Of a DNA stretch of 64,000 bases, positions 10,534-58,993 are shown in pieces. Position 1 is the stretch's first letter, and the number at the start of each line of letters is the position of its first letter. The position numbers were made by a program, and so were the translations under genes. The notes under the pieces are model-generated. The model searched no databases. It was not told the origin of the DNA and saw nothing but the letters and a program-made list of their open reading frames with translations. Source of the DNA: Gammaproteobacteria bacterium (lineage in GTDB: Bacteria > Pseudomonadota > Gammaproteobacteria > Chromatiales > Chromatiaceae); assembly GCA_021773975.1 (NCBI GenBank), contig JAJFJN010000038.1:124001-188000 (forward strand). Direction: 5' to 3'.

Positions 10534-12087
10534 ATGCACCAAGAACCATGTAATCCTCATATACCGCACTCCACACCAGTGGATACCATCATCCATCTTG
10601 GTGCCGGTCGTTGTAGTGAACTGGAGGGTTATCTCGCCTCAAAGCCAACACACCTGCTACTAGTCGAGGCTGACCCACAGCTGACCAAAACACTTCAAGC
10701 ACGCACTAATGATTTCCCACACGTCAAAATCATCAACAAAGCAGTAGCAGGTCAACCCGGCTCTGCTATGTTTTACCGCTACAACCTGCCAGATGTTAGC
10801 GGCCTGCACCAGGCCAACTCCAACCTCTTAAAGCTTTTTCCTGGCCTCAAAACCGTACAGACCGTTCAAACAGAAGCCACCGCACCCTCTGCTCTACTTC
10901 AACCTCTAGAGCTACAGGCAGACCAGCATAACTGGCTGACTATCGACCTGCCAGGTGAGGAGCTTGCGGTACTTAAAGCGATCCAGCAAGCTGATCAGCT
11001 ACATCTTTTTGACCAACTACAACTCCACTGTGGCAACCAAGCTTTATACGAGGAAGGCGAGCCAGCAGCCACTATTCTCCAATGGCTCCAAGATCAAGGC
11101 TTTGATCTTTTTCAAGAAGACAATAGTCATGATTTAGACCGCCCCTGTTGGATGCTAAAACGTAATAAGCTGCAACTACGCCATCGCCAACTTAAACAGC
11201 AACTAACTCGACTAACTCAACTAACAAGTGATCATGATACACAGCTCAACCAACAGAAAACTCAGATAGAACAACTCACCAAAGCAAGGGATGAACAGGT
11301 AAAGCTGGTAGCTGAACATAAAGAGCAATTGGAAAAAGCCAACCAGGCCAAAGCTAACCAGGAAAAGCTGGCAAATGTCCGTCTAACTCAGATAGAGCAA
11401 CTCACCAAAGCAAGAGATGAGCAGGCAAAGCTGGTAGCTGAACATAAAGAACAATTGGAAAAAACCAACCAGACCAGAGCTAATCAGGAAAAGCTGGCAA
11501 ATGATCGCCTAACTCAGATAGAACAGCTCACCAAAGCAAGAGATGAGCAGACAAAGCTGGTAGCTGAACATAAAGAACAATTGGAAAAAGCCAACCAGAC
11601 CAGAGCTAATCAGGAAAAGCTGGCAAATGATCGCCTAACTCAGATTGAACAGCTCACCAAAGCAAGAGATGAGCAGGCAAAGCTGGTAGCTGAACATAAA
11701 GAACAATTGGAAAAAGCCAACCAGACCAGAGCCCATCAGGAAAAGCTGGCAAATGATCGCCTAATTCAGCTAGAACAACTCACCAAAGCAAGCGATGAGC
11801 AGGCAAAGCTCACAGCTGAAAATAAAGCACAGCTGGATAAGGCCAACCAGGCTAAGGCCGAGCAGACACAGCTTGCTACAGCTCACCACCAACAACGTGA
11901 CCAAGAAAAACAGCGCGCAGATAACAACCAGCAACAGCTAGCGCAAAAACAGGAAGAAGTAGAAAAGCTCGAACAGCAACTTGGGGAGCTCAACCATAGG
12001 CTGCCCATGCTAGACACCGAATTTGTAAAAGCAGAAGCACAGATTGAACTTATCAAGGATATCCTGATTCGTGAAAAAGCGTTCTAA
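10534..12087 (+). CDS. FkbM-like methyltransferase domain fused to a long repetitive coiled coil
   Basis: A 517-residue protein. Residues 15-210 look like an FkbM-family SAM-dependent methyltransferase: TIIHLGAGRCSELEGY, then LLLVEADPQL as the acidic loop for the SAM ribose, then WLTIDLPGEELAVLKAI, the family's conserved block. The rest is a long coiled coil that includes five 42-residue tandem units (residues 243-452), each six heptads long, beginning TQIEQLTKARDEQ. No membrane segment is seen. FkbM enzymes usually O-methylate a sugar or polyketide hydroxyl; the substrate here is unknown. The coiled coil could oligomerise the enzyme or link it to the coiled coil of the 7398 protein. The stop overlaps the next gene's GTG start by 17 bases, implying translational coupling. 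Confidence 0.82.
   Translation: MHQEPCNPHIPHSTPVDTIIHLGAGRCSELEGYLASKPTHLLLVEADPQLTKTLQARTNDFPHVKIINKAVAGQPGSAMFYRYNLPDVSGLHQANSNLLKLFPGLKTVQTVQTEATAPSALLQPLELQADQHNWLTIDLPGEELAVLKAIQQADQLHLFDQLQLHCGNQALYEEGEPAATILQWLQDQGFDLFQEDNSHDLDRPCWMLKRNKLQLRHRQLKQQLTRLTQLTSDHDTQLNQQKTQIEQLTKARDEQVKLVAEHKEQLEKANQAKANQEKLANVRLTQIEQLTKARDEQAKLVAEHKEQLEKTNQTRANQEKLANDRLTQIEQLTKARDEQTKLVAEHKEQLEKANQTRANQEKLANDRLTQIEQLTKARDEQAKLVAEHKEQLEKANQTRAHQEKLANDRLIQLEQLTKASDEQAKLTAENKAQLDKANQAKAEQTQLATAHHQQRDQEKQRADNNQQQLAQKQEEVEKLEQQLGELNHRLPMLDTEFVKAEAQIELIKDILIREKAF
11260..11889 (+). repeat. Five 126-bp tandem repeats (42-residue coiled-coil units)
   Basis: Units start at 11260, 11386, 11512, 11638 and 11764, each exactly 126 bases. 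Units 2-4 are nearly identical in DNA, unit 1 slightly different and unit 5 clearly diverged. The period equals six heptads, so units can be gained or lost without breaking coiled-coil register or reading frame. Confidence 0.93.
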
Positions 12088-21514: not shown

Positions 21515-23533
21515 TCATTGTAATGATATTGCATGGCGCCAGCCTCCTGATCCGCCGCAAACCCATGCGGGGCAGATGCCATCTGTTGGATCAATATTAT
21601 TGTCAACTTCGTATTTATCTGACAAGCCATCATTGTCCGTATCTTTTTTTATTGGATCGGCACCAGCCTGATATTCTTGAAGATTTGTGAGGCCGTCACT
21701 GTCCTGGTCCTGAGTTGCATCGGTTGAATTAAGCGGATCAAGGAAGGCATAGCCGTTTTCATAAGTATCGGGCAGCCCATCATTATCATCGTCTGGATCA
21801 GACCTATCCTTTATTCCATCTCCATCTGTATCCATATCAAACCAAGCATTGATTATGGTATCAGATATTACGCCATCATACTTAATCATTGCACCAGTAA
21901 CCCATCCTGCTTTTCTAGCAATATAGGTCATCCAGTCCAGCCAATAATCAGCAGCAGTTGGGTTGTTCGTCATATTATTAGCTGCTGTGCCTGACGCATA
22001 ACCGCGGTGGAAGAGAATGGTGTGTCCATCATCACTAATGTATGCGTCTCGCAGCATACCATCCACAGTTAAAATAACTTTTTGATCCACTGAGCCATCT
22101 ATCGCGTAGGAGCAGCTTAGTGTTTGAACTGTACTAGAGTGATAATTATAAGCCCCATCATAATCAGTAGGTATCGTCTTCAACGTTGCACTACTCTTAT
22201 ATTCCTTCCAGGTACAGCTGGAGGCTCCATTAAATGTTACCGCAACTCTGGCGTTATAATGACTGGCTGCCCGCCTCTCCGTTGGGCACGGCAAATCTGA
22301 ATCCAGCATGCAGTCATCCCAATACGTGGAGCCTTTATAGTAGCCAAGATATGTGCCGCTATAGCTGGTGACCGAAGGATTCTGATTTACCTTCATGCCA
22401 GTAGCGGTGCCTCGAAAATAGTCCCACTCAACTCCAGCAGGAGTAGGCAGTGAACCTTTAAGTAGCCCCAAACCGCTTAAATAACGCTTACTTGCAGATG
22501 TCTTCAGGTCATAAATATCAGTTTCTGGGCCGTCACCCCAATCATACGTGACAGTTAAATGAATATTGTCCACACCACTTACCGTATAGCTACAGTTCGT
22601 GACATCAGTTGTTTCGTTTACATAGTCTTCGGAATAAACAGAGGCATCATCAATGGCTTGCCCGGTGTGCCCAATAGCCATTTCCCAACCCGCATCAAGC
22701 TGAACTGTACAACCCCCAGTGCCATTGAAGGTTACCAGCTGCTCCCAAATCTCCATCTCCTGCAGAGCGATAGATTTTTTACCATCGGCTGTGGTGCATA
22801 CCTCAGAATAGTCATTTAGATCACCATCAACATCCCCTTGGGCACATTCGACCCACGATCCCCTGTCCTGGATAAGATACATACCATTAACATCGGACAG
22901 CCCTAGGGCTACGGTGCCTTTTTTTAAACCTATGGTGGAAGTAACTTCAGACGCATCCTCATCTATATTGATGCCAGGGCTGCAAGAATAACACGACTCT
23001 ATCCCAGAGTAGATTTCAAACTCAGATGTGATATAGATATCAGCATCAGGGGTAAACATCAACAACCATTCAAATGGGTAGGTTTCACCGTCATCGATCT
23101 CAGTTATACCTGCTTCAACCAAATTATTGGTGACCGTATAATTACCGCTAAAAGACCAGTCGAGGGTTCCTGCAGCATGCGACATGTAGTCCTGATACAG
23201 GTCATGCCTAAAGACACTCTCTGACGGCAACGGCCCGTCCAACCAGTAATTGCTCCACTCCTCTGAATCCCAGTTCCAGCGGCTTCCGCCCACACCATCA
23301 TTGAAGTGAACAGAAGAATCAGCGGAGATAAAACCCACCTCAAACTCGTCTGATGCATGCCATACTTTTGAAACAAACGCTGATCCCGTCAGTGCGCCAT
23401 CAAAAATACCGGCTGATGCACCATGATCAGAGTCGATATTGATGTAGGTGCTGTTTAGAGCAACATTTGCTGCAGAGGCAGCTTCATAAGCCAATAAAAG
23501 ACTAAGAAATCCAATAACTTTCTTACCAACCAT
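21515..23533 (-). CDS. Large secreted protein with C-terminal thrombospondin type 3 calcium repeats
   Basis: A 672-residue protein. Residues 1-21 are a Sec signal peptide (MVGKKVIGFLSLLLAYEAASA). The 540-residue body is rich in Ser, Thr, Tyr, Trp and Gly, looks beta-rich and has several cysteine pairs (for example ESCYSCSPG); I recognise no catalytic motif. Residues 566-650 carry calcium-binding thrombospondin type 3 motifs: DTDGDGIKDRSDPDDDNDG, DQDSDGLTNLQEY and DTDNDGLSDKYE, known to form rigid calcium-loaded rods in surface proteins. The protein ends with CPAWVCGGSGG and a short hydrophilic tail, with no LPXTG or PEP-CTERM anchor. It could be a surface adhesin or glycan-binding protein, secreted or outer-membrane associated. 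Confidence 0.8.
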   Translation of the reverse strand: MVGKKVIGFLSLLLAYEAASAANVALNSTYINIDSDHGASAGIFDGALTGSAFVSKVWHASDEFEVGFISADSSVHFNDGVGGSRWNWDSEEWSNYWLDGPLPSESVFRHDLYQDYMSHAAGTLDWSFSGNYTVTNNLVEAGITEIDDGETYPFEWLLMFTPDADIYITSEFEIYSGIESCYSCSPGINIDEDASEVTSTIGLKKGTVALGLSDVNGMYLIQDRGSWVECAQGDVDGDLNDYSEVCTTADGKKSIALQEMEIWEQLVTFNGTGGCTVQLDAGWEMAIGHTGQAIDDASVYSEDYVNETTDVTNCSYTVSGVDNIHLTVTYDWGDGPETDIYDLKTSASKRYLSGLGLLKGSLPTPAGVEWDYFRGTATGMKVNQNPSVTSYSGTYLGYYKGSTYWDDCMLDSDLPCPTERRAASHYNARVAVTFNGASSCTWKEYKSSATLKTIPTDYDGAYNYHSSTVQTLSCSYAIDGSVDQKVILTVDGMLRDAYISDDGHTILFHRGYASGTAANNMTNNPTAADYWLDWMTYIARKAGWVTGAMIKYDGVISDTIINAWFDMDTDGDGIKDRSDPDDDNDGLPDTYENGYAFLDPLNSTDATQDQDSDGLTNLQEYQAGADPIKKDTDNDGLSDKYEVDNNIDPTDGICPAWVCGGSGGWRHAISLQ

Positions 23534-43474: not shown

Positions 43475-45325
43475 TCAGTCAGCTCGGCCTATACGGTTTT
43501 CTGGCACAAGCTGCTGTAGCTGTTGCATCAAGCAGGCATTATCAAACTGCTGGCAAGCTTGCTCCATTTCAGCCATAGCGCCACTCAACATCTCCCAATC
43601 TACTTTACGGTGCTGAGCCAGCAGAATCTTCTCATGGCCTGTCTGCTGCAGCTTTTCTTGTTCATGAAACAGCTCTTCATAGAGCTTTTCACCCGGCCGC
43701 AGCCCAATGTACTTGATCTCGATATCTTCACCCAACGTTTTGCCTGACAACCGAATCATCTGCTCTGCCAAGTAGCTGATTTTTACTGGTTCATTCATGT
43801 CCAGCACAAAGATCTCACCTCCATCTCCAATAGCAGCTGCCTGCATAATAAGTTGGGAGGCTTCAGGAATGGTCATAAAGTAGCGCTCCATATCTGGGTG
43901 AGTGACCGTCACCGGGCCACCCGCCTCGATCTGTTTACGAAACAGAGGAACTACGCTACCCGCAGAATCCAAGACATTACCAAAGCGCACTGTTATAAAA
44001 CGGGTTGTTGAACGGGCATCCAGATTCTGGCAAAAAAGCTCAGCTAATCTTTTTGTAGACCCCATCACATTTGCCGGATTTACTGCTTTATCAGTGGAGA
44101 TAAGTACAAATTCAGAACAGTTATGCCTATCTGCAGCCTCTGCAACATTGCGTGTTCCAAGCACATTATTATTCACAGCTTCACGCACCTGATGCTCAAG
44201 CAGCGGAACATGTTTATAAGCCGCCGCATGAAAAACAATATCAGGAGTATGCCTGGAAAACAGCTGCTCAACAGTCGCCCTATCCTCAACATCACCGATA
44301 TAAGCATACAGTTGCAGTACTGGAAACTGCTCTTTCAGTTCCATTTCAACGGAATATAGATTGAATTCTGATTGATCTAATAACAGCAGGCTTGCCGGTT
44401 CCAACTGAGCAATCTGTCGGCATAATTCAGCGCCAATAGAACCACCACCACCTGTGACTAGTATAGTTTTCCCTGCCAATCCGGTGCGGATGCCACCCCA
44501 ATCCAGTGCAACAGGATCACGCCCCAGCAGATCCTCAATCGAAACCTCGCGTAACTGATTGATACTCACGCGACCTGACATTAGTTCATCCAATTCAGGC
44601 ACAGTACGAAAGGGCACTCCACTTTGCTCACATAACTCTACCAATCGCCTTCTTTGTACTGATTTTGCCGATGGCACCGCTAACATTACACAATCAATCG
44701 TATACTTTTCCACCACCTGTGGAATAGCCTCACAATCATCCACCACGGGCACTCCATGTATCTCTTGCCCTTGCCACCTTTTTTTATTATCAACGAAAGC
44801 TACCGGTAGATAAGAGTGATCTCTCTTACGCAACAAATCTCGCACCAACAGTTCACCCGCCTTACCCGCACCGACAACCAGGACTCGCTCGCCTACTCGT
44901 AAATCAATATGATGATCCTTCAACCAGCGATAAAAGAAGCGGGGGCCGGTGAGCAGCATTACCAGCAGCACACCATAGAAAATAGGAACTGAACGCGGGA
45001 TATCTTCCATACGTAAAAAGAGAAACAACAATCCAAACCCTATAGCAAGACCAATGGCTACAGCTTGTAGGATTCGAATCAAATCTGGAATTGAGGCATA
45101 TCGCCACATCCCACGATAGAGCCCATAAAACCAGTTAACCCCCGCATGAACAATAATCAAAAGCGGTAATACTTCAACCGCACGATCAAAAAATTCATCG
45201 GGAATTACATCCAAATTAAAGCGCAACCAATAAGCACCAAACCAAGCAATAGGCACCATTAATAGATCATGTATAAAAACCGTCAATCTATGGCGAATAT
45301 TATTTATCAGAATTTTCATCTGCAT
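43475..45325 (-). CDS. Membrane UDP-GlcNAc 4,6-dehydratase (PglF/WbpM/CapD family)
   Basis: A 616-residue protein of the long membrane-bound class. Four hydrophobic segments (about residues 13-125) precede a nucleotide-binding region (RVLVVGAGKAGELLVRDLL) and the SDR domain starting KTILVTGGGGSIGAELCRQI near residue 285. The catalytic region reads FVLISTDKAVNPANVMGSTKR, with the Asp/Lys pair seen in PglF and WbpM, where Met replaces the usual SDR tyrosine. The expected product is UDP-2-acetamido-2,6-dideoxy-4-hexulose. The following aminotransferase and acetyltransferase genes make the bacillosamine route most likely (PglF role). Its ATG pair (MQMK) leaves the exact start open by two codons. 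Confidence 0.95.
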   Translation of the reverse strand: MQMKILINNIRHRLTVFIHDLLMVPIAWFGAYWLRFNLDVIPDEFFDRAVEVLPLLIIVHAGVNWFYGLYRGMWRYASIPDLIRILQAVAIGLAIGFGLLFLFLRMEDIPRSVPIFYGVLLVMLLTGPRFFYRWLKDHHIDLRVGERVLVVGAGKAGELLVRDLLRKRDHSYLPVAFVDNKKRWQGQEIHGVPVVDDCEAIPQVVEKYTIDCVMLAVPSAKSVQRRRLVELCEQSGVPFRTVPELDELMSGRVSINQLREVSIEDLLGRDPVALDWGGIRTGLAGKTILVTGGGGSIGAELCRQIAQLEPASLLLLDQSEFNLYSVEMELKEQFPVLQLYAYIGDVEDRATVEQLFSRHTPDIVFHAAAYKHVPLLEHQVREAVNNNVLGTRNVAEAADRHNCSEFVLISTDKAVNPANVMGSTKRLAELFCQNLDARSTTRFITVRFGNVLDSAGSVVPLFRKQIEAGGPVTVTHPDMERYFMTIPEASQLIMQAAAIGDGGEIFVLDMNEPVKISYLAEQMIRLSGKTLGEDIEIKYIGLRPGEKLYEELFHEQEKLQQTGHEKILLAQHRKVDWEMLSGAMAEMEQACQQFDNACLMQQLQQLVPENRIGRAD

Positions 45326-45412: not shown

Positions 45413-46600
45413 TCAAACTGAAGCTGCAGCAAATACTTTTTCAACGGCCATGCAGATTTTATCTATATTTGCTGCTGTCAAGGTAGGATGTACTGGGAAC
45501 ATTAAACTGGTTTCCCCCAATTCTTTTGTAACAGGAAAGGACTTTGGTAGTTCAAAACCAGCCTCAATAAAAGCTTTTTCTCGATAAACTTCACTGCAAC
45601 TACCACTAAAACAAGGCGCTCCTTCAGCATTAATAGCGGTAATAATATCATTATGATCCCACCCTATTTTTAAACACTCAGGGCGCATGAAAACATAAAA
45701 TTTATAATAAGCAGGTACAATATCACTGCTAGGTATTGGCACACGCAAAGCTGAAATTAGAGACAAGCGGTCTATAAATATTTTAGCATTCACTCGTCGT
45801 ATTTTTACCCAGCCATCAAGCTTAGACAGTTGTATCCGTCCAATTGCAGCCTGCATCTCCGTCATGCGCCAATTAGTACCAAATGATTCATGCAACCAGC
45901 GAAACATTACCCCAGGTGAACTAACATGTTGATAAACTGCATCATAACTCTTGCCATGATCCTTATAAGCCCAAGCACGCTTCCAAGCAGACTCATCTCT
46001 AAGAATTAACATGCCACCTTCACCACCAGTAGACATGATCTTATCTTGGCAAAAAGAAAAAGCTGCCGCATCACCAAAAGTGCCTACAAAGCGCCCCTTA
46101 TAAGTTGCAGCGTGTGCCTGTGCACAATCTTCAATTACTTTAAGATTATACTCTGCGGCCAACGCCAATATAGAATCCATACAACAAGGCCAACCAGCAT
46201 GGTGAACTAAGATTATTGCGCGAGTTTTAGACGTAATATGAGGATAGATAGTGTCCGCAGTAATATTTTGGCTATCTGAATTTACATCTGCAAATACCGG
46301 TGTTGCCCCACACATAACAATACTACTAGCAGATGCAATAAAAGTGCGTGATGTGACGATTACTTCATCACCAACCCCAATACCCAAAGCATGCAATGCC
46401 AACTCTAATGCCACGCTACCATTTGCAAGAGCAACAGCATGCTCTACACCAAAATACTGAGCAAATTCTCTTTCAAAAGCCTTACCTTCAGCCCCTGTCC
46501 AGTAATTTACCTGCCCAGATTGCAACACATGAGTAACTGCTTCTATTTCATCATGCTCATATACTGGCCAAGGTGGTATCTTCATTGAATCATAAGCCAT
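45413..46600 (-). CDS. DegT/DnrJ/EryC1-type aminotransferase (PglE-like)
   Basis: A PLP-dependent sugar aminotransferase of 395 residues. The N-terminal IPPWPVYEHDEIEAVTHVL is family-typical, suggesting that ATG 46585 is a credible alternative start. EHAVALANGSVALELALHAL is the cofactor-phosphate site. The PLP lysine lies in AFSFCQDKIMSTGGEGGML, with aspartate in VIEDCAQAHAATYKG. It should convert the 4-keto sugar of the neighbouring dehydratase to a 4-amino sugar, the PglE role in bacillosamine synthesis. It lies 87 bases upstream of the dehydratase gene and 123 downstream of the acetyltransferase gene; that gap is AT-rich and might hold an internal promoter. Confidence 0.94.
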   Translation of the reverse strand: MAYDSMKIPPWPVYEHDEIEAVTHVLQSGQVNYWTGAEGKAFEREFAQYFGVEHAVALANGSVALELALHALGIGVGDEVIVTSRTFIASASSIVMCGATPVFADVNSDSQNITADTIYPHITSKTRAIILVHHAGWPCCMDSILALAAEYNLKVIEDCAQAHAATYKGRFVGTFGDAAAFSFCQDKIMSTGGEGGMLILRDESAWKRAWAYKDHGKSYDAVYQHVSSPGVMFRWLHESFGTNWRMTEMQAAIGRIQLSKLDGWVKIRRVNAKIFIDRLSLISALRVPIPSSDIVPAYYKFYVFMRPECLKIGWDHNDIITAINAEGAPCFSGSCSEVYREKAFIEAGFELPKSFPVTKELGETSLMFPVHPTLTAANIDKICMAVEKVFAAASV

Positions 46601-46723: not shown

Positions 46724-47359
46724 TTACTTTTTAGCTATTGCATAAGCAGGCATTCCTACAACTACCTCACAATCAAAAACAGGAGCAATTACCACCGCCC
46801 CCGCACCAACTACTACATTTTTACCTATTGTAATACCAGGAATAATTGTACTTCCAACCCCTACTAATGAAGCCTCTCCAATACTAACATTCCCACAAAT
46901 ACTGCACCCAGGAGCCACATGTGCTCCATTCTCAATAGTGCAGTCATGATCTATAGTTGACCCAGTATTTATTACAACATTATCGCCTATCCAAGTACCT
47001 GAATTAATTACAGCTCCAGCCATTACAACTGTACCCACTCCAATATGTACATTACGACCAATTTGTGCACTTGGGTGAATTGCGCTACACAAAACAAAGC
47101 CTTGCTTCATAAGCCAATTAGCAACAAGCAAGCGTGCTTTATTATTTCCAATGGCAACAATGCCAAAAGCAGCACTCAAAACCACCTCATCCAACAGTTG
47201 TTGTCGGCCACCAATTACAGGATAACTAAAAAAATCTTTCCCCCAAAGAGCATCATCATCATCAACCAACGCCAACACCCGATAGCCACCCATATGCTCA
47301 AGAATATCAATAACCACTTTAGAATGACCACTAGCCCCAAAAACAAACATATCATTCAT
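46724..47359 (-). CDS. NeuD/PglD-type sugar O/N-acetyltransferase
   Basis: A 211-residue acetyltransferase. The N-terminal Rossmann-like sugar-nucleotide domain starts MFVFGASGHSKVVIDILEHMGG, and VDDDDALWGKDFFSYPVIGG follows. From residue 95 it has a left-handed beta-helix of hexapeptide repeats (AQIGRNVHIGVGTVVMAGAV, GTWIGDNVVINTGSTIDHDC, with the catalytic histidine in DHDC, then ENGAHVAPGCSICG). In PglD the analogous His activates the 4-amino group for acetyl-CoA. Context makes UDP-4-amino-6-deoxy-GlcNAc the likely substrate, yielding UDP-diNAc-bacillosamine. The start overlaps the end of its downstream partner as ATGA coupling with the sugar transferase gene. Confidence 0.94.
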   Translation of the reverse strand: MNDMFVFGASGHSKVVIDILEHMGGYRVLALVDDDDALWGKDFFSYPVIGGRQQLLDEVVLSAAFGIVAIGNNKARLLVANWLMKQGFVLCSAIHPSAQIGRNVHIGVGTVVMAGAVINSGTWIGDNVVINTGSTIDHDCTIENGAHVAPGCSICGNVSIGEASLVGVGSTIIPGITIGKNVVVGAGAVVIAPVFDCEVVVGMPAYAIAKK

Positions 47360-47967
47360 GATGAATCCTTTGTATTTGTGGCGCTCCCCATAAATTTACT
47401 CATTGTTGCCTGACCAGCCTCACTAACACCCTCTTTACACAAAACTTTAGCTACAGTCATCCAAAGGATTTTCAAATCCAACCAAAAATTTTGGTGCTGA
47501 ACATACCAAACATCAAGCGCAAAACGCTCTTCCCAGCTAATTGCATTTCTTCCGTTAACCTGAGCCCATCCGGTAATACCAGGTCTTACCTCATGACGTC
47601 GCGCCTGCTCAGAAGAGTACAAAGACATATACTCCATCAACAGCGCTCTTGGACCAACTAGACTCAGATCACCTTTAAGCACATTATACAGCTGCGGCAA
47701 CTCATCAAGGCTAGATCCTCGCAAAAAACGCCCGAATGGCAGTAAACGTTCTACATCAGGCAACAGCACTCCCTTAGCATCCTGTGCATCACTCATACTA
47801 CGGAATTTATAAATATAAAATGGCTTACCATGAAAACCTGGTCGCTGCTGCCTAAACAAGATAGGTGAACCCAGCTTTACACGCACCAGCAATGCCACCA
47901 ATAGCAACACTGGCCATAGCAGGCATAGACCACTTATCGCAGCAGTAAAATCAAACAATCGTTTCAT
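47356..47967 (-). CDS. Small monotopic phosphoglycosyl transferase (PglC-like)
   Basis: A 203-residue initiating transferase, the minimal PglC size. The re-entrant N-terminal helix is MKRLFDFTAAISGLCLLWP, followed by FRQQRPGFHGKPFYIYKFRSM split by a loop. The catalytic Asp-Glu dyad is in RGSSLDELPQLYNV, and SLVGPRALLMEY and RHEVRPGITGWAQVNGRN are family blocks. It transfers a phospho-sugar, here probably phospho-diNAc-bacillosamine, from UDP to undecaprenyl phosphate, which starts the repeat unit on the cytoplasmic face. Overlaps of 4 bases on both sides tie it to the acetyltransferase and GT4 genes. Confidence 0.95.
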   Translation of the reverse strand: MKRLFDFTAAISGLCLLWPVLLLVALLVRVKLGSPILFRQQRPGFHGKPFYIYKFRSMSDAQDAKGVLLPDVERLLPFGRFLRGSSLDELPQLYNVLKGDLSLVGPRALLMEYMSLYSSEQARRHEVRPGITGWAQVNGRNAISWEERFALDVWYVQHQNFWLDLKILWMTVAKVLCKEGVSEAGQATMSKFMGSATNTKDSS

Positions 47968-49100
47968 TGTAAGCGATCATAATAATCCAACCAGGCATCA
48001 ACCAGTCGCTTTACAGAAAAATCATTTCTCACCCGCATCAGTGCAGCTTCCCCCATATCATGCCTGCACTCTGGCTGTGAAACCATCTGATTTATAGCTG
48101 CAGCCAATTTACCACTATCACCCGCCGGAACAAGCAACCCCGTTTCTCCATTCTTAATAGCATCTGAAATACCATAAATATCTGAGCCAATTGCCGGTAC
48201 AGCACAGGCTGCCGCCTCAATAATCACGCTGCCAAATCCCTCTCTGTAACTTGGCAAACAGAATATATCTGCTGCGGCAAGCCAAGACTCCGGCTTATCA
48301 GAATAATCAACAAAATGGAGTCGATCAGCATATACACCCACTATCTGCTTAATCTCATTTTTTAATCCGCCTTCATCTGGCCCTACAAGCAATAAATGAA
48401 CCTTATGTGAAGCAACATCAGCAAAAGCAACAGCCAGATCAAGCACCCCTTTATCCTGATTTAATCTCCCCAGAAATAACAGCAGGACATCATCATCGCT
48501 GATACCCAGCTCGGCCCTGATCTCAGTACCAACTGCATTATTCGGCCTGAACCGATCTAGATCCACACCACTAATTGATCCATCAGCCAGAACACTCAAC
48601 TTCGCCCCATGAGTAATACCCTGATCAATTAAAAACTGGCGCTGCGAACTACTATCCGCCAGCAGATGTGTAGCCAATGCAGCAAGCAAGCGATCCATAT
48701 TTTTCAGTAATAGGCGCAAAAACCCATGCTGGGTTACCCATACCTGCCCAGTAAAGGTGTGAATGCGAAAAGGGGCATCAGTTATCCATCCAGCCAACAT
48801 GGCAAGCAGTCCAGCTTTTGGTGTGACAGAGTGGATAATAGTAAAGCGATGTCGACGAAATATCTGGATCAAACAAAACAATGCTCGCATATCAGCAACA
48901 GGATTAATTGCTCGTTCAATAGCAAGAGGAGCCACTTTAACAGGCAAACCATTCTGTCCTGCGAAATCAGCGAGTTCAGTATTAACAACCAGCGTCACTT
49001 CATACTGTTTAGACAGCGCCTTGATTTGTTCTTTCAAAAACGCTTTAACAGTCATCTCACTGGATACCACTATGCATATTCTACCTTTCAATGGGTTCAT
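47964..49100 (-). CDS. GT4 glycosyltransferase (PglA-like)
   Basis: A GT-B family 4 glycosyltransferase of 378 residues from ATG 49100; an upstream TTG at 49115 is possible. The N-terminal strand is GRICIVVSSEMTVKAFLKEQ, with HSVTPKAGLLAMLAGW typical of the PglA/WbpY-like group. The C-terminal domain has LLLFLGRLNQDKGVLDL and the E-x7-E motif in CLPSYREGFGSVIIEAA near residue 295. It should add the second sugar onto the lipid-linked bacillosamine (GalNAc in Campylobacter PglA), though the donor here is unknown. It overlaps the phosphoglycosyl transferase gene by 4 bases. Confidence 0.93.
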   Translation of the reverse strand: MNPLKGRICIVVSSEMTVKAFLKEQIKALSKQYEVTLVVNTELADFAGQNGLPVKVAPLAIERAINPVADMRALFCLIQIFRRHRFTIIHSVTPKAGLLAMLAGWITDAPFRIHTFTGQVWVTQHGFLRLLLKNMDRLLAALATHLLADSSSQRQFLIDQGITHGAKLSVLADGSISGVDLDRFRPNNAVGTEIRAELGISDDDVLLLFLGRLNQDKGVLDLAVAFADVASHKVHLLLVGPDEGGLKNEIKQIVGVYADRLHFVDYSDKPESWLAAADIFCLPSYREGFGSVIIEAAACAVPAIGSDIYGISDAIKNGETGLLVPAGDSGKLAAAINQMVSQPECRHDMGEAALMRVRNDFSVKRLVDAWLDYYDRLQ

Positions 49101-49120
49101 CCCGTGACCAATCAAAATAG

Positions 49121-52012
49121 CTATTCAAGCATAGCCGTCTTCTCAGAGTTCAATATATAGATCGCTAGAATCATCGCGATGACTGATACAATGACTCCAG
49201 AATAACTTTGAAAGTGTATACATAGCATCATGGTCAAGAACAGCAACCAGATTAGTCCAGAAAAAAGGACATCCAGCCATGACATATTCCCCTGGCGATG
49301 CACCATCCATAATAATACAGAGGCACTGCAGAACATGGAGAGCGAGGTTGCGGCAGCAATTCCTGCAACACCCATCCTTTGCATCAACACGTAGTTTAGT
49401 ACGATGTTAATAATCATGCCAACAACAGAAGCCATCAGAATGGCTTTGTTATCGTGCGATGCAGTTGCATATTTTATCAAGATCAACTGGCAGGCAAAAA
49501 ATGGAATTTGAAGAATTCCCATATGGATCACGCGTATCACCACATCAATATCCCCAGCATCGACACTTCCTTCAGCAAAAAAGAGATGTATCAGTGGTGA
49601 AGATGCATAATAAACAATAACGCTGACAAAAATGCCCAGCAATGTCGCTATAGAGACAAGAAGCGATAGCTCGCGGTTTGCAGAGACCATATCTCGTTTC
49701 ACGACAAAACCGACAAAATAGGGTAATAAAGCCATGGACACCCCGGTTCCAATAACTCCTGTTACAAAGAAAATGACTTTGTATCCCAACCCAAGCACCG
49801 CAACGCTACCAGGCACTAGGCTGGCAGCCATCCCATTATCAATGAGCAATGACACCTGTAGGAATATTGAAGTCAAAACCAGTGAGGCAAACTGTTTTTT
49901 ATTACTTTTAGAGATTCCAGCAAAGCCACTATTGCTTTTTGGCATTACGCTTAATCGTTCCCGCTTCAAGTAATACTGTACAAGCCCCAGATTAACAAGC
50001 TGCCCTACAACCATACCTAGAATAGCAGCAGACACGCCCCATTGATCACTAGCAACCAATAGAAACGCAATGGCAAACAGCGGTACAACTGCCTGCGACC
50101 ATGCAGGAGCAGTAAAATTCATCCGCGCACTGAGAATGGCATTTCCCAATATAATCATGCCGCTAAAAATAAGAAGCGGTAATACTTGATATAACAAAGA
50201 CTGGGTCTGCTTAAGCGTCTCAGGAGTGAATTCCCACCCCAGAAGTGGGACTAAAATAGGAGCCAGAATAGCTATAATAAGGCTCAATGCGAGCAAAAAC
50301 AGGGTTACTTTATATGCAAGATACTGAGCAACAGCAGCCCCATGTGCTTCACTGCGTTGGCGCTCATGCATATAAACTGAAACACTTGTTGAACCAAATG
50401 ATTGCCCAAAAACGTTGACAAAAAACATCGGGATCAGCATGGCTATATAAAAGGCATCCATCTGACCACCAAAGCCAAATGTATTCGCCAGAATTACATC
50501 TCTGAAAAAGAAGCCGATAAATGACAGAACGGTGATTAATGATACAAAAACACCACCACCAACAGCTGTTTTTCTCAGCGCCCCAAGCTCTTTGTTCTTT
50601 TTGTCAGCACTATCACTTGATAAGAGTGCATCAGCCTGCACGTGAACTATAGGCATGCGCGTAAACCGGCGTACTACCCTCGATCTGAAAAAGCTATTTT
50701 TAGAAAATGCGTAGACCCAACCCAGTACACCTACACCCATAAAAATAAACAGAAATGGATATCGCAGCCTATGCAATGTCCCCATATTTCCAATCGTGAA
50801 TCCATAAATAGCCAGATAACAGAGTGCAAATGCTAGACAAAGCATCAACCCATTGGCTCGCAATCTGTACAGCGCTAATAAAAAGCCCGGTATAAGCAGA
50901 TACCAGATAAAAATTTCCAGGCCGCCTATAAGACGCGACATGCTGGACGGATGCAGCCACATATCGGGAAAAGGGCCAAGCAAGGCTATTTCAAGTGCTC
51001 TAGGCATATAGGAAACAACCCCTACAATACTGTTCGGCAATTGTTCCCGATCTACATTGGAGCCAGCATCATAGCTAGAACATATCAACCCCGCCCTAGT
51101 TCTAGCGGCTTTCTCTGCAAGTTTTTCGATGCCTCTGGGTAGAAAATTGCTCGGTTCCCAGGTCCAATCAGAGCATACTTGAGTAGCTTGAGGAGCCTGA
51201 GAACCTGCCCATGTATCATAAGTATTAGATCCGGTTGTTGCCTTCATACCCACAGAAATTGCAACCAGCGCAATGAAGAGCCACATACATGCAGCAGTGA
51301 ACAGGTATCGCCAATTACTCTTCCATTGTCTCTGGAAAATTGACAGACATGCCACGGATACCAACCATACTCCCGTTGCCACAGTTAAAAACATCAGATT
51401 GTATGGTCGGACAAAAGCTATGAGGGCCATTCCAGCCAAGCTTCCCACTGCGAATAATACAACCGCATGTTTATCGGTTTGTTGATGCAAATACTTCAAC
51501 CACGAATAGAGGACCAGATAGGTACCTGCTATGGCATAGCCATCTTTGTGAACTTGAGCATACCAGTTGATACTTGATGGAAAGGTGACAAACAATGCTG
51601 CAGAAATAACCCCCGCTGTCTGTCCAACTCGTCCCGGCCATAACAACTGCACAATTAAATACAGCAGTACGCCTGATGTCGCATGAAAAGCTGCATTGAT
51701 TGGTAGGACCAGCGAAGGATCCGGACCGAACAAGGCATACAAGATCGCAAGAACTGTTACATTACCCCTGGATCCAGGACTACTCGACCATAATGCATCC
51801 CAGGACCATCCAAAAGACAGGATATGAGCCGCCATTGCCTCTGCGACCTGGTGAAAATAAATAGCATCATTACTCATCAATCCATGGCCTGCATGGAGGG
51901 ATGGAATACCGGGTAAAAGAAGCTTCTGAAAGAGTAGCCCAATGACGGTAGAGTAGCAAAAAAGCGCTACCCATAGAGGTAACGATAAATTGTTCATGCC
52001 GCTACGCTTCAT
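49121..52012 (-). CDS. Fusion of GT-C-like membrane protein and MurJ/MVF-type flippase
   Basis: The ATG at 52012 follows AGGGA and the GT2 stop, giving 963 residues. Residues 1-455 resemble polytopic GT-C/PMT-type transferases: many helices and a first periplasmic loop MSNDAIYFHQVAEAMA, where Asp often serves catalysis, plus FPSSINWYAQVHKDGYAIAG and FVRPYNLMFLTV. After a hydrophilic linker (about 455-475), residues 477-963 match the MurJ/MVF flippase family: FRDVILANTFGFGGQMDAFYIA, FGQSFGSTSVSVYM, GNAILSARMNFTAPAW, then helices to the end. The reading frame is continuous across the join. The protein probably moves a lipid-linked glycan and may transfer sugars on the outer face. Confidence 0.82.
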   Translation of the reverse strand: MKRSGMNNLSLPLWVALFCYSTVIGLLFQKLLLPGIPSLHAGHGLMSNDAIYFHQVAEAMAAHILSFGWSWDALWSSSPGSRGNVTVLAILYALFGPDPSLVLPINAAFHATSGVLLYLIVQLLWPGRVGQTAGVISAALFVTFPSSINWYAQVHKDGYAIAGTYLVLYSWLKYLHQQTDKHAVVLFAVGSLAGMALIAFVRPYNLMFLTVATGVWLVSVACLSIFQRQWKSNWRYLFTAACMWLFIALVAISVGMKATTGSNTYDTWAGSQAPQATQVCSDWTWEPSNFLPRGIEKLAEKAARTRAGLICSSYDAGSNVDREQLPNSIVGVVSYMPRALEIALLGPFPDMWLHPSSMSRLIGGLEIFIWYLLIPGFLLALYRLRANGLMLCLAFALCYLAIYGFTIGNMGTLHRLRYPFLFIFMGVGVLGWVYAFSKNSFFRSRVVRRFTRMPIVHVQADALLSSDSADKKNKELGALRKTAVGGGVFVSLITVLSFIGFFFRDVILANTFGFGGQMDAFYIAMLIPMFFVNVFGQSFGSTSVSVYMHERQRSEAHGAAVAQYLAYKVTLFLLALSLIIAILAPILVPLLGWEFTPETLKQTQSLLYQVLPLLIFSGMIILGNAILSARMNFTAPAWSQAVVPLFAIAFLLVASDQWGVSAAILGMVVGQLVNLGLVQYYLKRERLSVMPKSNSGFAGISKSNKKQFASLVLTSIFLQVSLLIDNGMAASLVPGSVAVLGLGYKVIFFVTGVIGTGVSMALLPYFVGFVVKRDMVSANRELSLLVSIATLLGIFVSVIVYYASSPLIHLFFAEGSVDAGDIDVVIRVIHMGILQIPFFACQLILIKYATASHDNKAILMASVVGMIINIVLNYVLMQRMGVAGIAAATSLSMFCSASVLLWMVHRQGNMSWLDVLFSGLIWLLFLTMMLCIHFQSYSGVIVSVIAMILAIYILNSEKTAMLE

Positions 52013-52016
52013 GACA

Positions 52017-52901
52017 TTAGTCCCTGAGTTCATCAAACAGCCTTGTAAGTGTTTGCTCTTCACCGTTCTGTAGCATCAGCAGTTTTCTCTCACATCCCGG
52101 CATACCTGTCGACGCGAGTAAATCCCCGCAACTTTTCACGAGCTGTGTAAAAATTATTCTAGTTTTTAGAAAACGGATATCACTTCGTACATCGGTCCGA
52201 AGCGCTGCTTTAGCAAAGATCAGTCTAGCCCGGAAAGTCTTCATTAAAGGGCGCTTGTTCTGCCTGTAACACAAAAGCACCGTGTTCAAGCATGCAAAGC
52301 GGCTGTCATAATAACTGCGTAATAATAGGTTCTGGTCTTCAGCCCCATCAGATAATGAAAGATAACGATGGGCCTTGAACCAATTTACTCTTCCCATCCA
52401 TGTAGGGTGTGGAAGATAAAAACCTCCCCAAGGTTTTGCGCAAATATCTTCATGCTTCTCACAGATAGATAGCTTCCCTTGCAAACTATATAAATCATCA
52501 AATACTGCTATATTCGTCCCTAGCAGGTCTATCTCAGGATGTAATTGTAAAAACTCCAGTTGCATTTCTATGCGTTCATGGAAACTAATATCATCCTGAT
52601 CCATGCGGGCAAAATATGTGCCCTTCGACATGCCCACTGCCATATTCAGGCGTGCAGAAAGCCCAATATTTTCTTCACCCGCAACCAGGCGAATACGCGG
52701 ATCAGCGAAAGAACGCATCACCTCCAGGCCATGGTCAGTGGAAGCGTCATCCAGAATAATCAATTCCCAGTCCTGGAAACTCTGTTGCAGGATAGAACGG
52801 ATAGCCATAGCCAGCGTAGCTGCACCGTTGTATACCGGTAATGCAATTGTTACCAGCGGCTGCACTAATGCCTTGCTGTCTGTTTCAGATGCTTTCCTCA
52901 T
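52017..52901 (-). CDS. GT2 glycosyltransferase
   Basis: The ATG at 52901 overlaps the epimerase stop as TGATG and is preceded by AAGGGG, so I prefer it to the GTG at 52919. The 294-residue protein is a family 2 glycosyltransferase: LVTIALPVYNGAATLAMAI, then LIILDDASTDHGLEVM, FARMDQDDISFHERI (metal-binding DxD region), and later DGAEDQNLLLRSYY. It should add one sugar from a nucleotide donor on the cytoplasmic side. It sits within the long minus-strand operon between an epimerase and the GT-C/MurJ fusion, starting within one base of its neighbour. The acceptor is unknown. Confidence 0.93.
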   Translation of the reverse strand: MRKASETDSKALVQPLVTIALPVYNGAATLAMAIRSILQQSFQDWELIILDDASTDHGLEVMRSFADPRIRLVAGEENIGLSARLNMAVGMSKGTYFARMDQDDISFHERIEMQLEFLQLHPEIDLLGTNIAVFDDLYSLQGKLSICEKHEDICAKPWGGFYLPHPTWMGRVNWFKAHRYLSLSDGAEDQNLLLRSYYDSRFACLNTVLLCYRQNKRPLMKTFRARLIFAKAALRTDVRSDIRFLKTRIIFTQLVKSCGDLLASTGMPGCERKLLMLQNGEEQTLTRLFDELRD

Positions 52902-53812
52902 CACAGCCCCTTCAGCCACTCCATCTGGTCTCTGATGCCATTGGGCAATGCCACGGTAGGCTTCCAGCCAAATTGAGCCGTAGCCATGCTGATATCAAGC
53001 ACTATCTCTTTTACGTCAAGTGATCTACCTTCACGGTAGGTTACCTGCAGCTCCTTATCTGCAACCTCACCAATCAATTTAATAACCTCATTAATTGAAT
53101 AACCTACACCGCTACCCGCATTGAATACACCACATGTGTTACTCGCTAACGCACTGACACAAAGGCGGGCAAGATCGCTTACATGCATGTAATCACGCAC
53201 AATGGAACCGTCGCCCCATATTTCAAGCGTCTCACCTGCCAGCATCCTGGCAAGCAATGTTCCAATCAGACCTTGGACGCCTACATGTCCCTGCCTAGGC
53301 CCATAAGGGTTGGATGGGCGCAATATAATTGGTTGCAAGCCATAAAGCTGCTGATACATCTTCAAATATTTTTCAATTGCCAGCTTCACAACGCCATAGG
53401 AACTGATTGGATTCAGTGGAAAGTTTTCACTAACCGGTGAAGATTTAGGATTACCATACACAGCACCACCAGAGGAGAGATACAATATCCTACGTAAATC
53501 CTTTTTTCGCATCTGCTCCAGCAGGTTCAATGTATTGATCAGATTGCTTTTAACATCAGTAACTGGATCAAGGTTAGAGGTGCTCGGAACTGTTGTGCTA
53601 ATCAGATGGCAAACTGCATCCATTCCCTGCAATGCCTCGGCTATCTGGAATGTGTCGTCAAAGCTGCCAAGCCGGTATTCAACCTGTTTTACTGGCCCAC
53701 GGTAGTGTTCAGGTGAGCGATCAAACACGCGCACTTTTTGGCCGGCTGCAAGCAACAGATCCACCACATGTGAACCAATAAAACCGTTGCCACCTAATAC
53801 CAAGACCTTCAT
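52901..53812 (-). CDS. NAD-dependent epimerase/dehydratase
   Basis: Start ATG 53812 (AGGA upstream) gives MKVLVLGGNGFIGSHVVDLL, a canonical extended SDR start; a longer frame adds 25 residues overlapping the preceding gene. The protein has 303 residues. The catalytic serine region is LYLSSGGAVYGNP and the Tyr-x3-Lys pair is in ISSYGVVKLAIEKYL, followed by LRPSNPYGPRQGHVGVQGLIG (GalE-like). It should interconvert a nucleotide sugar at C4; UDP-glucose 4-epimerase-like activity is the first guess but the substrate is not decided by sequence. It overlaps the next gene by one base. Confidence 0.93.
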   Translation of the reverse strand: MKVLVLGGNGFIGSHVVDLLLAAGQKVRVFDRSPEHYRGPVKQVEYRLGSFDDTFQIAEALQGMDAVCHLISTTVPSTSNLDPVTDVKSNLINTLNLLEQMRKKDLRRILYLSSGGAVYGNPKSSPVSENFPLNPISSYGVVKLAIEKYLKMYQQLYGLQPIILRPSNPYGPRQGHVGVQGLIGTLLARMLAGETLEIWGDGSIVRDYMHVSDLARLCVSALASNTCGVFNAGSGVGYSINEVIKLIGEVADKELQVTYREGRSLDVKEIVLDISMATAQFGWKPTVALPNGIRDQMEWLKGL

Positions 53813-57493: not shown

Positions 57494-58993
57494 CTATCTC
57501 CAAATCTGCACTCGCTGCAAAAGCTCCAGCCTGATGGCAGGTGCCGTCCATGCGGCAATACAGCAAGACACCAAGCCTGTTATAAGAATCCAAAGCAATT
57601 GGCCGAACGTACCCATATCTTTGGGCAATAATAACCAAAAACATATAATTACGCCCATGGAGGTCAAAAAAGGCAAACCAAAATCAAATATGAGCCAATA
57701 CCTTAATTCACCTCTGAATATCTTTCGATGCATTAAGGTTAATCCAAAAATAATATAACCGACGTTCAATAACAGCCAGATCACTGCTGCTCCAGACGCC
57801 CCATAAGACGCTACAGCCAGAATCAGCGCCGGTAAAAGAACTATAATCGCTACTATATTCATGCCGATGGCTAGCCTGGTCCAACCGTGGGCCAGTTGCA
57901 GTGCAAACGGAAGCGTCATCATTCCGTTAAGTGCAGTGCCTATAATAAGCACACTCAAAATTGGAGCCGCATGCCCAGCAAGCACCTCGTCTTGAGTCCA
58001 TAAACGTAAAAGCTCGCTCGAAAAACAACTGATCACCAAGGCCAGGGGCATAACCAGCACCGTCATCAACTGACAGCTTTTATGGTATAAACCTTTTAAC
58101 ACTGACTCTTCATTATTTGCCAATAGCTGGGTAAACCGTGGATAAACCGCAGAAAACAGAGGCCCAATGATCACCGCAAGACATACCGCAACAGTGGAGG
58201 CGAAAGCGTAATATGCAAATGCCTCCAGTGACAGCATCTTACTCAAAATAACCTTGTCCATCTGGATGAGAATTGCAGAGAGTAACGAAATAACACTCAT
58301 TCCGGCTGCAAAACGCCACAAACGTCGAATAATAGCGCCCTGGTATACCGTCTTCGCTGCTGACGCTGGCAGGCTGCTCCAGAGGGCCATAGCCATCATA
58401 GCTGCCCCCAGCGCAGATATTATCAACTGCCAAAGAAAGAAAGCCGTAATTTCAGGTGAAACCCACCAGAGAATAAGCACTACCCCACCACTCCTTAATG
58501 TCTCTGCAACTACCTTGATGACATTAAGCAGCACCTGCTGTTGCAAACCGAGAAGTCCACCACTATAGAACCCGTAAGGCATGCGTAGGCCAATCATCAT
58601 GCCCATCAGGATGATTGAAATGTGCACTGTTTCTTCAGAAAGCGCACTGGCATTTAACCATTGAGTTGCAATCCATGGGGCAAGCAGCGTAACCACAACC
58701 ATGACCACAATTGCAACACACCAATATACAATCTCCAGGGTACGCACCAGACTGCGCATTTCCTGCGCCTTTCCCTGTAAAGCAGACAGCCGCGCAAGCT
58801 CCCGGGAAATAGTTGCTGTCAAACCCATATCCAGCACAGCGAACAGGGCCTGAAGTGTCAGGTAAAAACCTATCAGTCCATAGGACTCCACGCCCATAAA
58901 ATGGATGTAGAGAGGAATAAAAGCAATTGAAATCAAGGCCACCCAACCACTTCCAATCAGGTTGGCAATGATGTTCTTCCTAACTAGGGACAT
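57494..58993 (-). CDS. wzx: Wzx-type oligosaccharide flippase
   Basis: A 499-residue polytopic membrane protein with about 12-14 helices in the polysaccharide-transport/MOP superfamily. It starts SLVRKNIIANLIGSGWVALI, continues with FYLTLQALFAVLDMGLTATI and SRELARLSALQ, matching the Wzx/RfbX start, and has LSKMLSLEAFAYYAFASTVA further on. It should flip undecaprenyl-linked repeat units to the periplasm. A Wzy polymerase and chain-length regulator of the Wzx/Wzy type are not seen in this window. It lies 9 bases after the CmcI-like gene and 5 before the FkbM gene. Confidence 0.93.
   Translation of the reverse strand: MSLVRKNIIANLIGSGWVALISIAFIPLYIHFMGVESYGLIGFYLTLQALFAVLDMGLTATISRELARLSALQGKAQEMRSLVRTLEIVYWCVAIVVMVVVTLLAPWIATQWLNASALSEETVHISIILMGMMIGLRMPYGFYSGGLLGLQQQVLLNVIKVVAETLRSGGVVLILWWVSPEITAFFLWQLIISALGAAMMAMALWSSLPASAAKTVYQGAIIRRLWRFAAGMSVISLLSAILIQMDKVILSKMLSLEAFAYYAFASTVAVCLAVIIGPLFSAVYPRFTQLLANNEESVLKGLYHKSCQLMTVLVMPLALVISCFSSELLRLWTQDEVLAGHAAPILSVLIIGTALNGMMTLPFALQLAHGWTRLAIGMNIVAIIVLLPALILAVASYGASGAAVIWLLLNVGYIIFGLTLMHRKIFRGELRYWLIFDFGLPFLTSMGVIICFWLLLPKDMGTFGQLLWILITGLVSCCIAAWTAPAIRLELLQRVQIWR

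Follow-up and report, generated by a model that had tools for sequence, protein, structure and literature searches.

A MurJ/MVF-type flippase fused to a predicted GT-C glycosyltransferase fold in a bacterial membrane protein encoded beside a PglC/GT4 cassette

Background

In the pgl pathways of Campylobacter and Neisseria the late steps are carried out by a flippase and a transferase, which are separate proteins of other families than those considered here. The GT-C enzyme ArnT is likewise encoded beside a flippase, ArnE/ArnF, which is made of separate proteins and is not of the MOP type. MprF acts on aminoacyl-phospholipids, synthesis preceding flipping, and its folds differ from those of the protein presented here. 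MprF is reported to be a transferase and a flippase in a single polypeptide (PMC8131360), an arrangement that it shares with the present protein. The three-component systems of extracytoplasmic glycosylation (GtrA/GtrB/GT-C, a MATE flippase with GT136, GacK/GacL) combine a flippase, sometimes of the MOP superfamily, with a GT-C enzyme acting on lipid-linked sugars at the outer face of the membrane (PMC11127046, PMC8035078). Their proteins are separate and their donor is an Und-P-sugar, whereas in the locus described below a GT-C enzyme and a dedicated flippase are fused and accompanied by a PglC/GT4 cassette that should make an Und-PP-glycan.

In this work we analysed a window, by which we mean the whole stretch of 64,000 nucleotides of a gammaproteobacterial contig, and found that it encodes a membrane protein in which a predicted GT-C fold is joined to a MurJ/MVF-type flippase. 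GT-C and MOP-flippase partners are already known as separate proteins, and MprF is a transferase-flippase fusion of another kind; the single-chain GT-C/MOP version appears new, no earlier report of such a fusion having been found in the mostly open-access literature searched. Little is understood of how a lipid-linked glycan passes from its flippase to the enzyme acting on it, and assigning substrates to flippases is difficult. A covalent flippase/GT-C pair that occurs in nature and also has split relatives makes such a coupling directly testable. Our main reading, to which we give a probability of about one half, is that PglC and GT4 together make an Und-PP-linked product, which the C-terminal half (C-half) flips and the N-terminal half (N-half) then uses on the outer face.

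Results and discussion

The fusion gene lies on the minus strand at 49121..52012 and was delimited by its uninterrupted frame, Pfam and AF2/structure matches. It is read from 52012 to 49121 as 963 codons with zero internal stops, in agreement with an earlier note on this DNA, which had described one unbroken frame of that length. An AGGGA-like ribosome site stands about 9 nt before the ATG at 52012, which lies 4 nt after the stop codon of the GT2 gene; an in-frame GTG at 52063 is a less likely start. The full-length model (pLDDT 74.9, pTM 0.72) and the charge pattern place a hydrophilic, basic linker at about residues 439-487 (50552..50698, minus strand). By charge count this segment, which corresponds to the short hydrophilic linker of the earlier note, contains 10 K/R, and its basic residues favour a cytoplasmic location. 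With helix limits set by hand from the predicted model, the charge pattern also favours a periplasmic side for the motifs of the N-half and an even helix count in that half, in keeping with an N-in start of the flippase.

The N-half (residues 1-438; 50699..52012, minus strand) was defined from the AlphaFold2 model, structure matches and the charge pattern as a GT-C_A module with, by the model, about 10 TM helices. Profile searches yielded neither a Pfam match above threshold nor an NCBIfam match, and its profile had no significant match among PDB sequences. A model computed from 11 related sequences (pLDDT 79.9, pTM 0.81) was compared with the PDB using Foldseek, and the top 20 matches were all GT-C enzymes or complexes containing them; the GT-C matches included OST, ArnT, DPY19, Pmt4, ALG12 and ALG9. 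VIA-align superposed it on yeast OST with Z 20.1 (355 residues, 4.7 A), on ArnT with Z 19.8 (314 residues, 4.4 A) and on PglB with Z 18.4 (334 residues, 4.0 A). By AlphaFold2, Foldseek and VIA-align it has the TM core of GT-C_A enzymes with juxtamembrane (JM) helices between TM1 and TM2, and by its predicted structure the N-half is a GT-C glycosyltransferase, of a family that the Pfam and NCBIfam libraries searched do not cover. The GT-C core expected by the earlier note is thus present in the model. Its assignment to the PMT/GT39 type did not hold at the sequence level: against Pfam PMT_2/PMT (PMT/GT39/ArnT) the window N-half had no match and the best relative (L013) reached 22.3 bits, below the cut-off of 26.1, and in the modelled fold OST and ArnT appear to fit equally well. 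HMM comparison with ArnT/PMT was weak (32% with a small reference set of 3 sequences), and with E. coli ArnT alone it gave no significant match. Since OST uses an Und-PP donor and ArnT an Und-P donor, and both match equally, fold comparison does not choose between the two kinds of donor.

In GT-C_A enzymes the tip of JM helix 1 carries a shared catalytic Asp (PMC12041299). A conserved Asp occupies this place in the N-half: Asp49 (51866..51868, minus strand) is kept in every N-half that extends to that region of the alignments, and in the AlphaFold2 model it stands after TM1, at the start of helix 47-67. Conservation, the model and an STT3 alignment make it the candidate catalytic residue. HMM comparison with STT3 proteins of bacteria (probability 91.7, E 7.9e-7 for a single target; 1.3 for a flippase-set negative control) aligns Asp49 with the loop-1 Asp of STT3, and H155-K156-D157 (51542..51550, minus strand), a motif of the second periplasmic loop, with the DxD/E motif of STT3. 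The K/R-D/E part of this motif is common to the entire N-half family. His155 is found in part of it only, position 155 being H, L, Q or N in relatives (x-K-D/E), and we dropped H155 and D157 as OST-like metal ligands. An OST-type metal site is not supported, because the first acid of DxD/E is not conserved. The N-half thus resembles the oligosaccharyltransferases (STT3/PglB/AglB) in its GT-C_A fold and in the two aligned motifs; it differs from them in this acid and in having no C-terminal periplasmic domain, in place of which stand the basic linker and the flippase, and membership of the OST family was rejected on both points.

The C-half (about residues 488-963; 49124..50551, minus strand) is a MurJ/MVF-type MOP flippase according to Pfam, NCBIfam, PDB sequences and the model, which shows 14 helices. 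Its Pfam MurJ match covers residues 508-956 (E 6.5e-51; 173.8 bits against a cut-off of 27.4), it also matches solved MurJ chains in sequence searches, Foldseek returns MurJ first (E 1.4e-13), and WzxE gives a target-normalised TM-score of up to 0.81. Both the family score and the fold with its 14 TM helices place the C-half in the MOP superfamily.

The score far above the cut-off of a Pfam family named 'Lipid II flippase MurJ' would suit a second lipid II flippase, that is a true MurJ with an accessory domain. Three cavity arginines, R18, R24 and R270 in E. coli numbering, are reported to be essential in MurJ (PMC9973255). Alignment with MurJ shows that R24-D25 is kept as R504-D505 (50498..50503, minus strand), but R18 is lost and R270 is replaced by Lys in all fused and split members, K745 (49778..49780, minus strand) being the residue at this place in the window. 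The C-half also falls short of the NCBIfam MurJ equivalog TIGR01695 (169.4 against 235.55 bits), its neighbours are surface-glycan genes, and a separate canonical MurJ is encoded in 5/5 genomes checked, the own genome and four others. Because it lacks two of the three essential arginines and a separate MurJ exists in those five genomes, the C-half probably does not serve as the lipid II flippase, although its family and fold are of the MurJ type; a true MurJ is very improbable, and lipid II flipping was rejected as its function. The earlier note was right about the MurJ/MVF type of this half, a label that should not be taken to mean lipid II flipping. From MurJ itself the C-half further differs in having a GT-C fusion partner.

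The 'MurJ' annotation can mislead outside peptidoglycan synthesis. A gene annotated murJ in an exopolysaccharide cluster on a Nostoc plasmid (L093:7944-9317) carries Lys in place of both R18 and R24 and is probably a further MVF flippase that does not serve peptidoglycan. For phages the C-half was the only query; three records that are phage by label (H21, H22 and H24, under the names Acinetobacter phage MD-2021a and Microcystis phage MaAM05) contain MurJ/MviN-like genes about 24% identical to it. No fused relative was found in viral contigs with the N-half as query or in plasmids with the whole protein.

The genes around the fusion were assigned by Pfam, together with comparison of neighbours (GT2) or of the relatives' loci (GT4 to PglF) and with NCBIfam for PglD and DegT. 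All are on the minus strand. In the order of transcription they are a GT2 glycosyltransferase gene directly upstream (52017..52919), the fusion, a GT4 glycosyltransferase gene directly after it (47964..49106), a PglC-type initiating phosphoglycosyl transferase (Bac_transf; 47356..47967), a PglD/NeuD-type sugar acetyltransferase (46724..47359), a DegT/PglE-type aminotransferase (45413..46600) and a PglF-type nucleotide-sugar 4,6-dehydratase (43475..45325). From its spacing, the stretch from GT2 to PglF looks like part of an operon. PglF-, PglE-, PglD- and PglC-type genes are thus found together in the window, and this bacillosamine-type cassette is conserved in relatives; with the GT4 gene and the flippase and transferase as late steps it resembles the Campylobacter and Neisseria pathways, the families being those given by Pfam and NCBIfam. 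The earlier note had recognised the adjoining set and placed it before the fusion; with the fusion gene read from the minus strand, the set in fact follows it in transcription.

Of the 17 informative fused loci, 14 have PglC less than about 3 kb from the fusion, and both split loci have it as well. In L088, L089 and L091 the stretch fetched contains none, which counts against the main reading; L090 ends at a contig edge. The loci with PglC nearly always have PglD too, and usually GT4 and DegT. In one relative (L082) GT4, the N-half and PglC follow in a row without a flippase of the C-half type, an order that ties the N-half to PglC-initiated glycans. The fusion also connects a GT-C family without earlier assignment to a defined PglC/GT4 cassette.

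The same junction was found in one open frame in 18 genomes of Gamma-, Zeta-, Beta- and 'Deltaproteobacteria', and a frameshift, an assembly artefact or chance was ruled out as its origin for this reason. They comprise five Zetaproteobacteria, five genomes from the class to which a 'deltaproteobacterial' MAG belongs, five from the order of a betaproteobacterial MAG and, besides the window itself, a relative of the same genus (75% identical) and one more gammaproteobacterium (43%); 3/18 genes are cut by contig ends, with the junction present in all three. In two more genomes the halves are encoded by neighbouring genes, about 210 nt apart (L080) or with a 4 nt overlap (L081), and these form a Rosetta-stone pair with the fusion. 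The possibility left by the earlier note, that homologues are always split with a frameshift at this point, is answered by 18 fused genes against two split ones. An N-half gene without an adjacent flippase of the C-half type occurs in five relatives (L024, L082, L083, L084 and L085). The occurrence is patchy, with 1/143 genomes in the class sample and 5 clear cases among 78 Zetaproteobacteria. Between gammaproteobacterial and Zetaproteobacterial loci the fusion is 64% identical and neighbour genes are up to 92% identical, and this high identity suggests horizontal transfer. In L010 (L010:9965-12838) the N-half is of the window/Zeta type (55-61%), and the C-half is closer to that of L087 (50%) than to that of the window (35%); these different ancestries suggest that one half was exchanged by recombination at or near the linker, the protein still being fused. 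The trees, whose branches are long, support no particular order of fusion and splitting. Conservation of the junction in at least 18 genomes makes it probable that flipping and sugar transfer are linked steps.

Apart from the fusion, the polytopic proteins of the window cluster are MsbA and one separate Wzx-type flippase (57494..58993, minus strand; Pfam), and Wzx genes also occur in the relatives L005, L006 and L088. The C-half may have another cargo because of this separate Wzx. The halves might also act in the same pathway and yet independently, the fusion fixing stoichiometry or placement only and the C-half duplicating the nearby Wzx, as the Wzx genes, the two split pairs and the N-halves standing alone would allow. 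We consider this quite unlikely, however, with the fusion kept in 18 genomes and even after the half exchange in L010, and with some loci having no other flippase in the stretch fetched; in L081, L086 and L087 the fusion or the split pair is the sole large polytopic protein in the roughly 19 kb fetched.

The main reading thus draws on the 18 fused and two adjacent-split genomes, the PglC linkage, the gene order of L082, the persistence of the fusion in L010 and the three loci without another large polytopic protein, besides the two folds, the topology pattern and the loss of MurJ residues, all of which were computed. It would proceed as follows. The PglF/DegT/PglD-type enzymes would make a diNAcBac-type nucleotide sugar, whose sugar PglC would load onto undecaprenyl phosphate, and the conserved GT4 would add the next sugar at the cytoplasmic face. 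The C-half, a MOP flippase seemingly no longer fitted for lipid II, would move the short Und-PP-linked glycan across the membrane. The N-half, with a putative periplasmic-side active site, would then take the Und-PP glycan either as donor, for transfer to core lipid or protein, or as acceptor of a sugar from a lipid-phosphate donor. The split homologues, together with the conserved cassette, lend weight to the coupling of flipping and transfer put forward in the earlier note; we infer the substrate, the direction of transfer and any direct hand-over between the halves.

A further-reaching version, in which the protein is a self-contained flip-and-transfer machine whose flippase half hands an Und-PP-linked bacillosamine-type glycan directly to a GT-C domain of a new family, for ligation at its active site to the final acceptor without a separate Wzx, Wzy or WaaL/PglL, seems to us rather improbable. 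No Wzy/WaaL-like protein was seen in the window cluster; O-antigen-ligase-domain proteins are encoded elsewhere in the own genome, and an O-antigen-ligase-like gene near the fusions of L006 and L012 could provide the final transferase, which counts against the main reading as well.

The protein could also be the fused pair of a three-component system. The C-half would then flip an Und-P-monosaccharide made elsewhere, and an ArnT/GT39-like, metal-independent N-half would add the sugar to an O-unit or the LPS core, PglC being linked only because the acceptor is PglC-initiated. Separate MATE- or Wzx-type flippases paired with GT-C enzymes have been assigned to Und-P-sugar donors (PMC11127046, PMC8035078), which counts against an Und-PP donor, and the equal fit of ArnT and the missing OST-type metal motif point the same way. 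The E. coli arn operon, too, has GT-C and flippase genes as neighbours; ArnT shares with the N-half the GT-C_A fold and the flippase encoded alongside, and differs in sequence. The recurring partners, however, are PglC, PglD and GT4, and no Und-P-sugar synthase was recognised in the conserved cassette. We regard an Und-P donor as possible, and as clearly less probable than flipping and use of the PglC/GT4 product.

On the next contig stretch, past the window, heptosyltransferase-like and kinase-like genes were noticed by eye, and on this account the glycan product may be part of LPS, which we offer as a lead only. Close to these genes, on the same contig, lies a polytopic, GT-C-like-looking protein of 518 aa with an RDGTVYIRAA motif (L102:8630-10186). 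Two related-looking proteins of 813-818 aa with about 19 predicted TM stretches (L012:8879-11335 and L091:14157-16598) are encoded in clusters like that of the fusion; neither has a Pfam match, and that of L012 also has no NCBIfam or PDB-sequence match. In L011 two similar polytopic proteins are encoded close together beside the fusion cassette (L011:18980-20407 and 21776-22783), an apparent duplication. Elsewhere in the window, at 10534-12087, a methyltransferase-like N-terminal part is followed by near-identical tandem coiled-coil repeats (EQLTKARDEQ..KLVAEHKEQLEKANQ).
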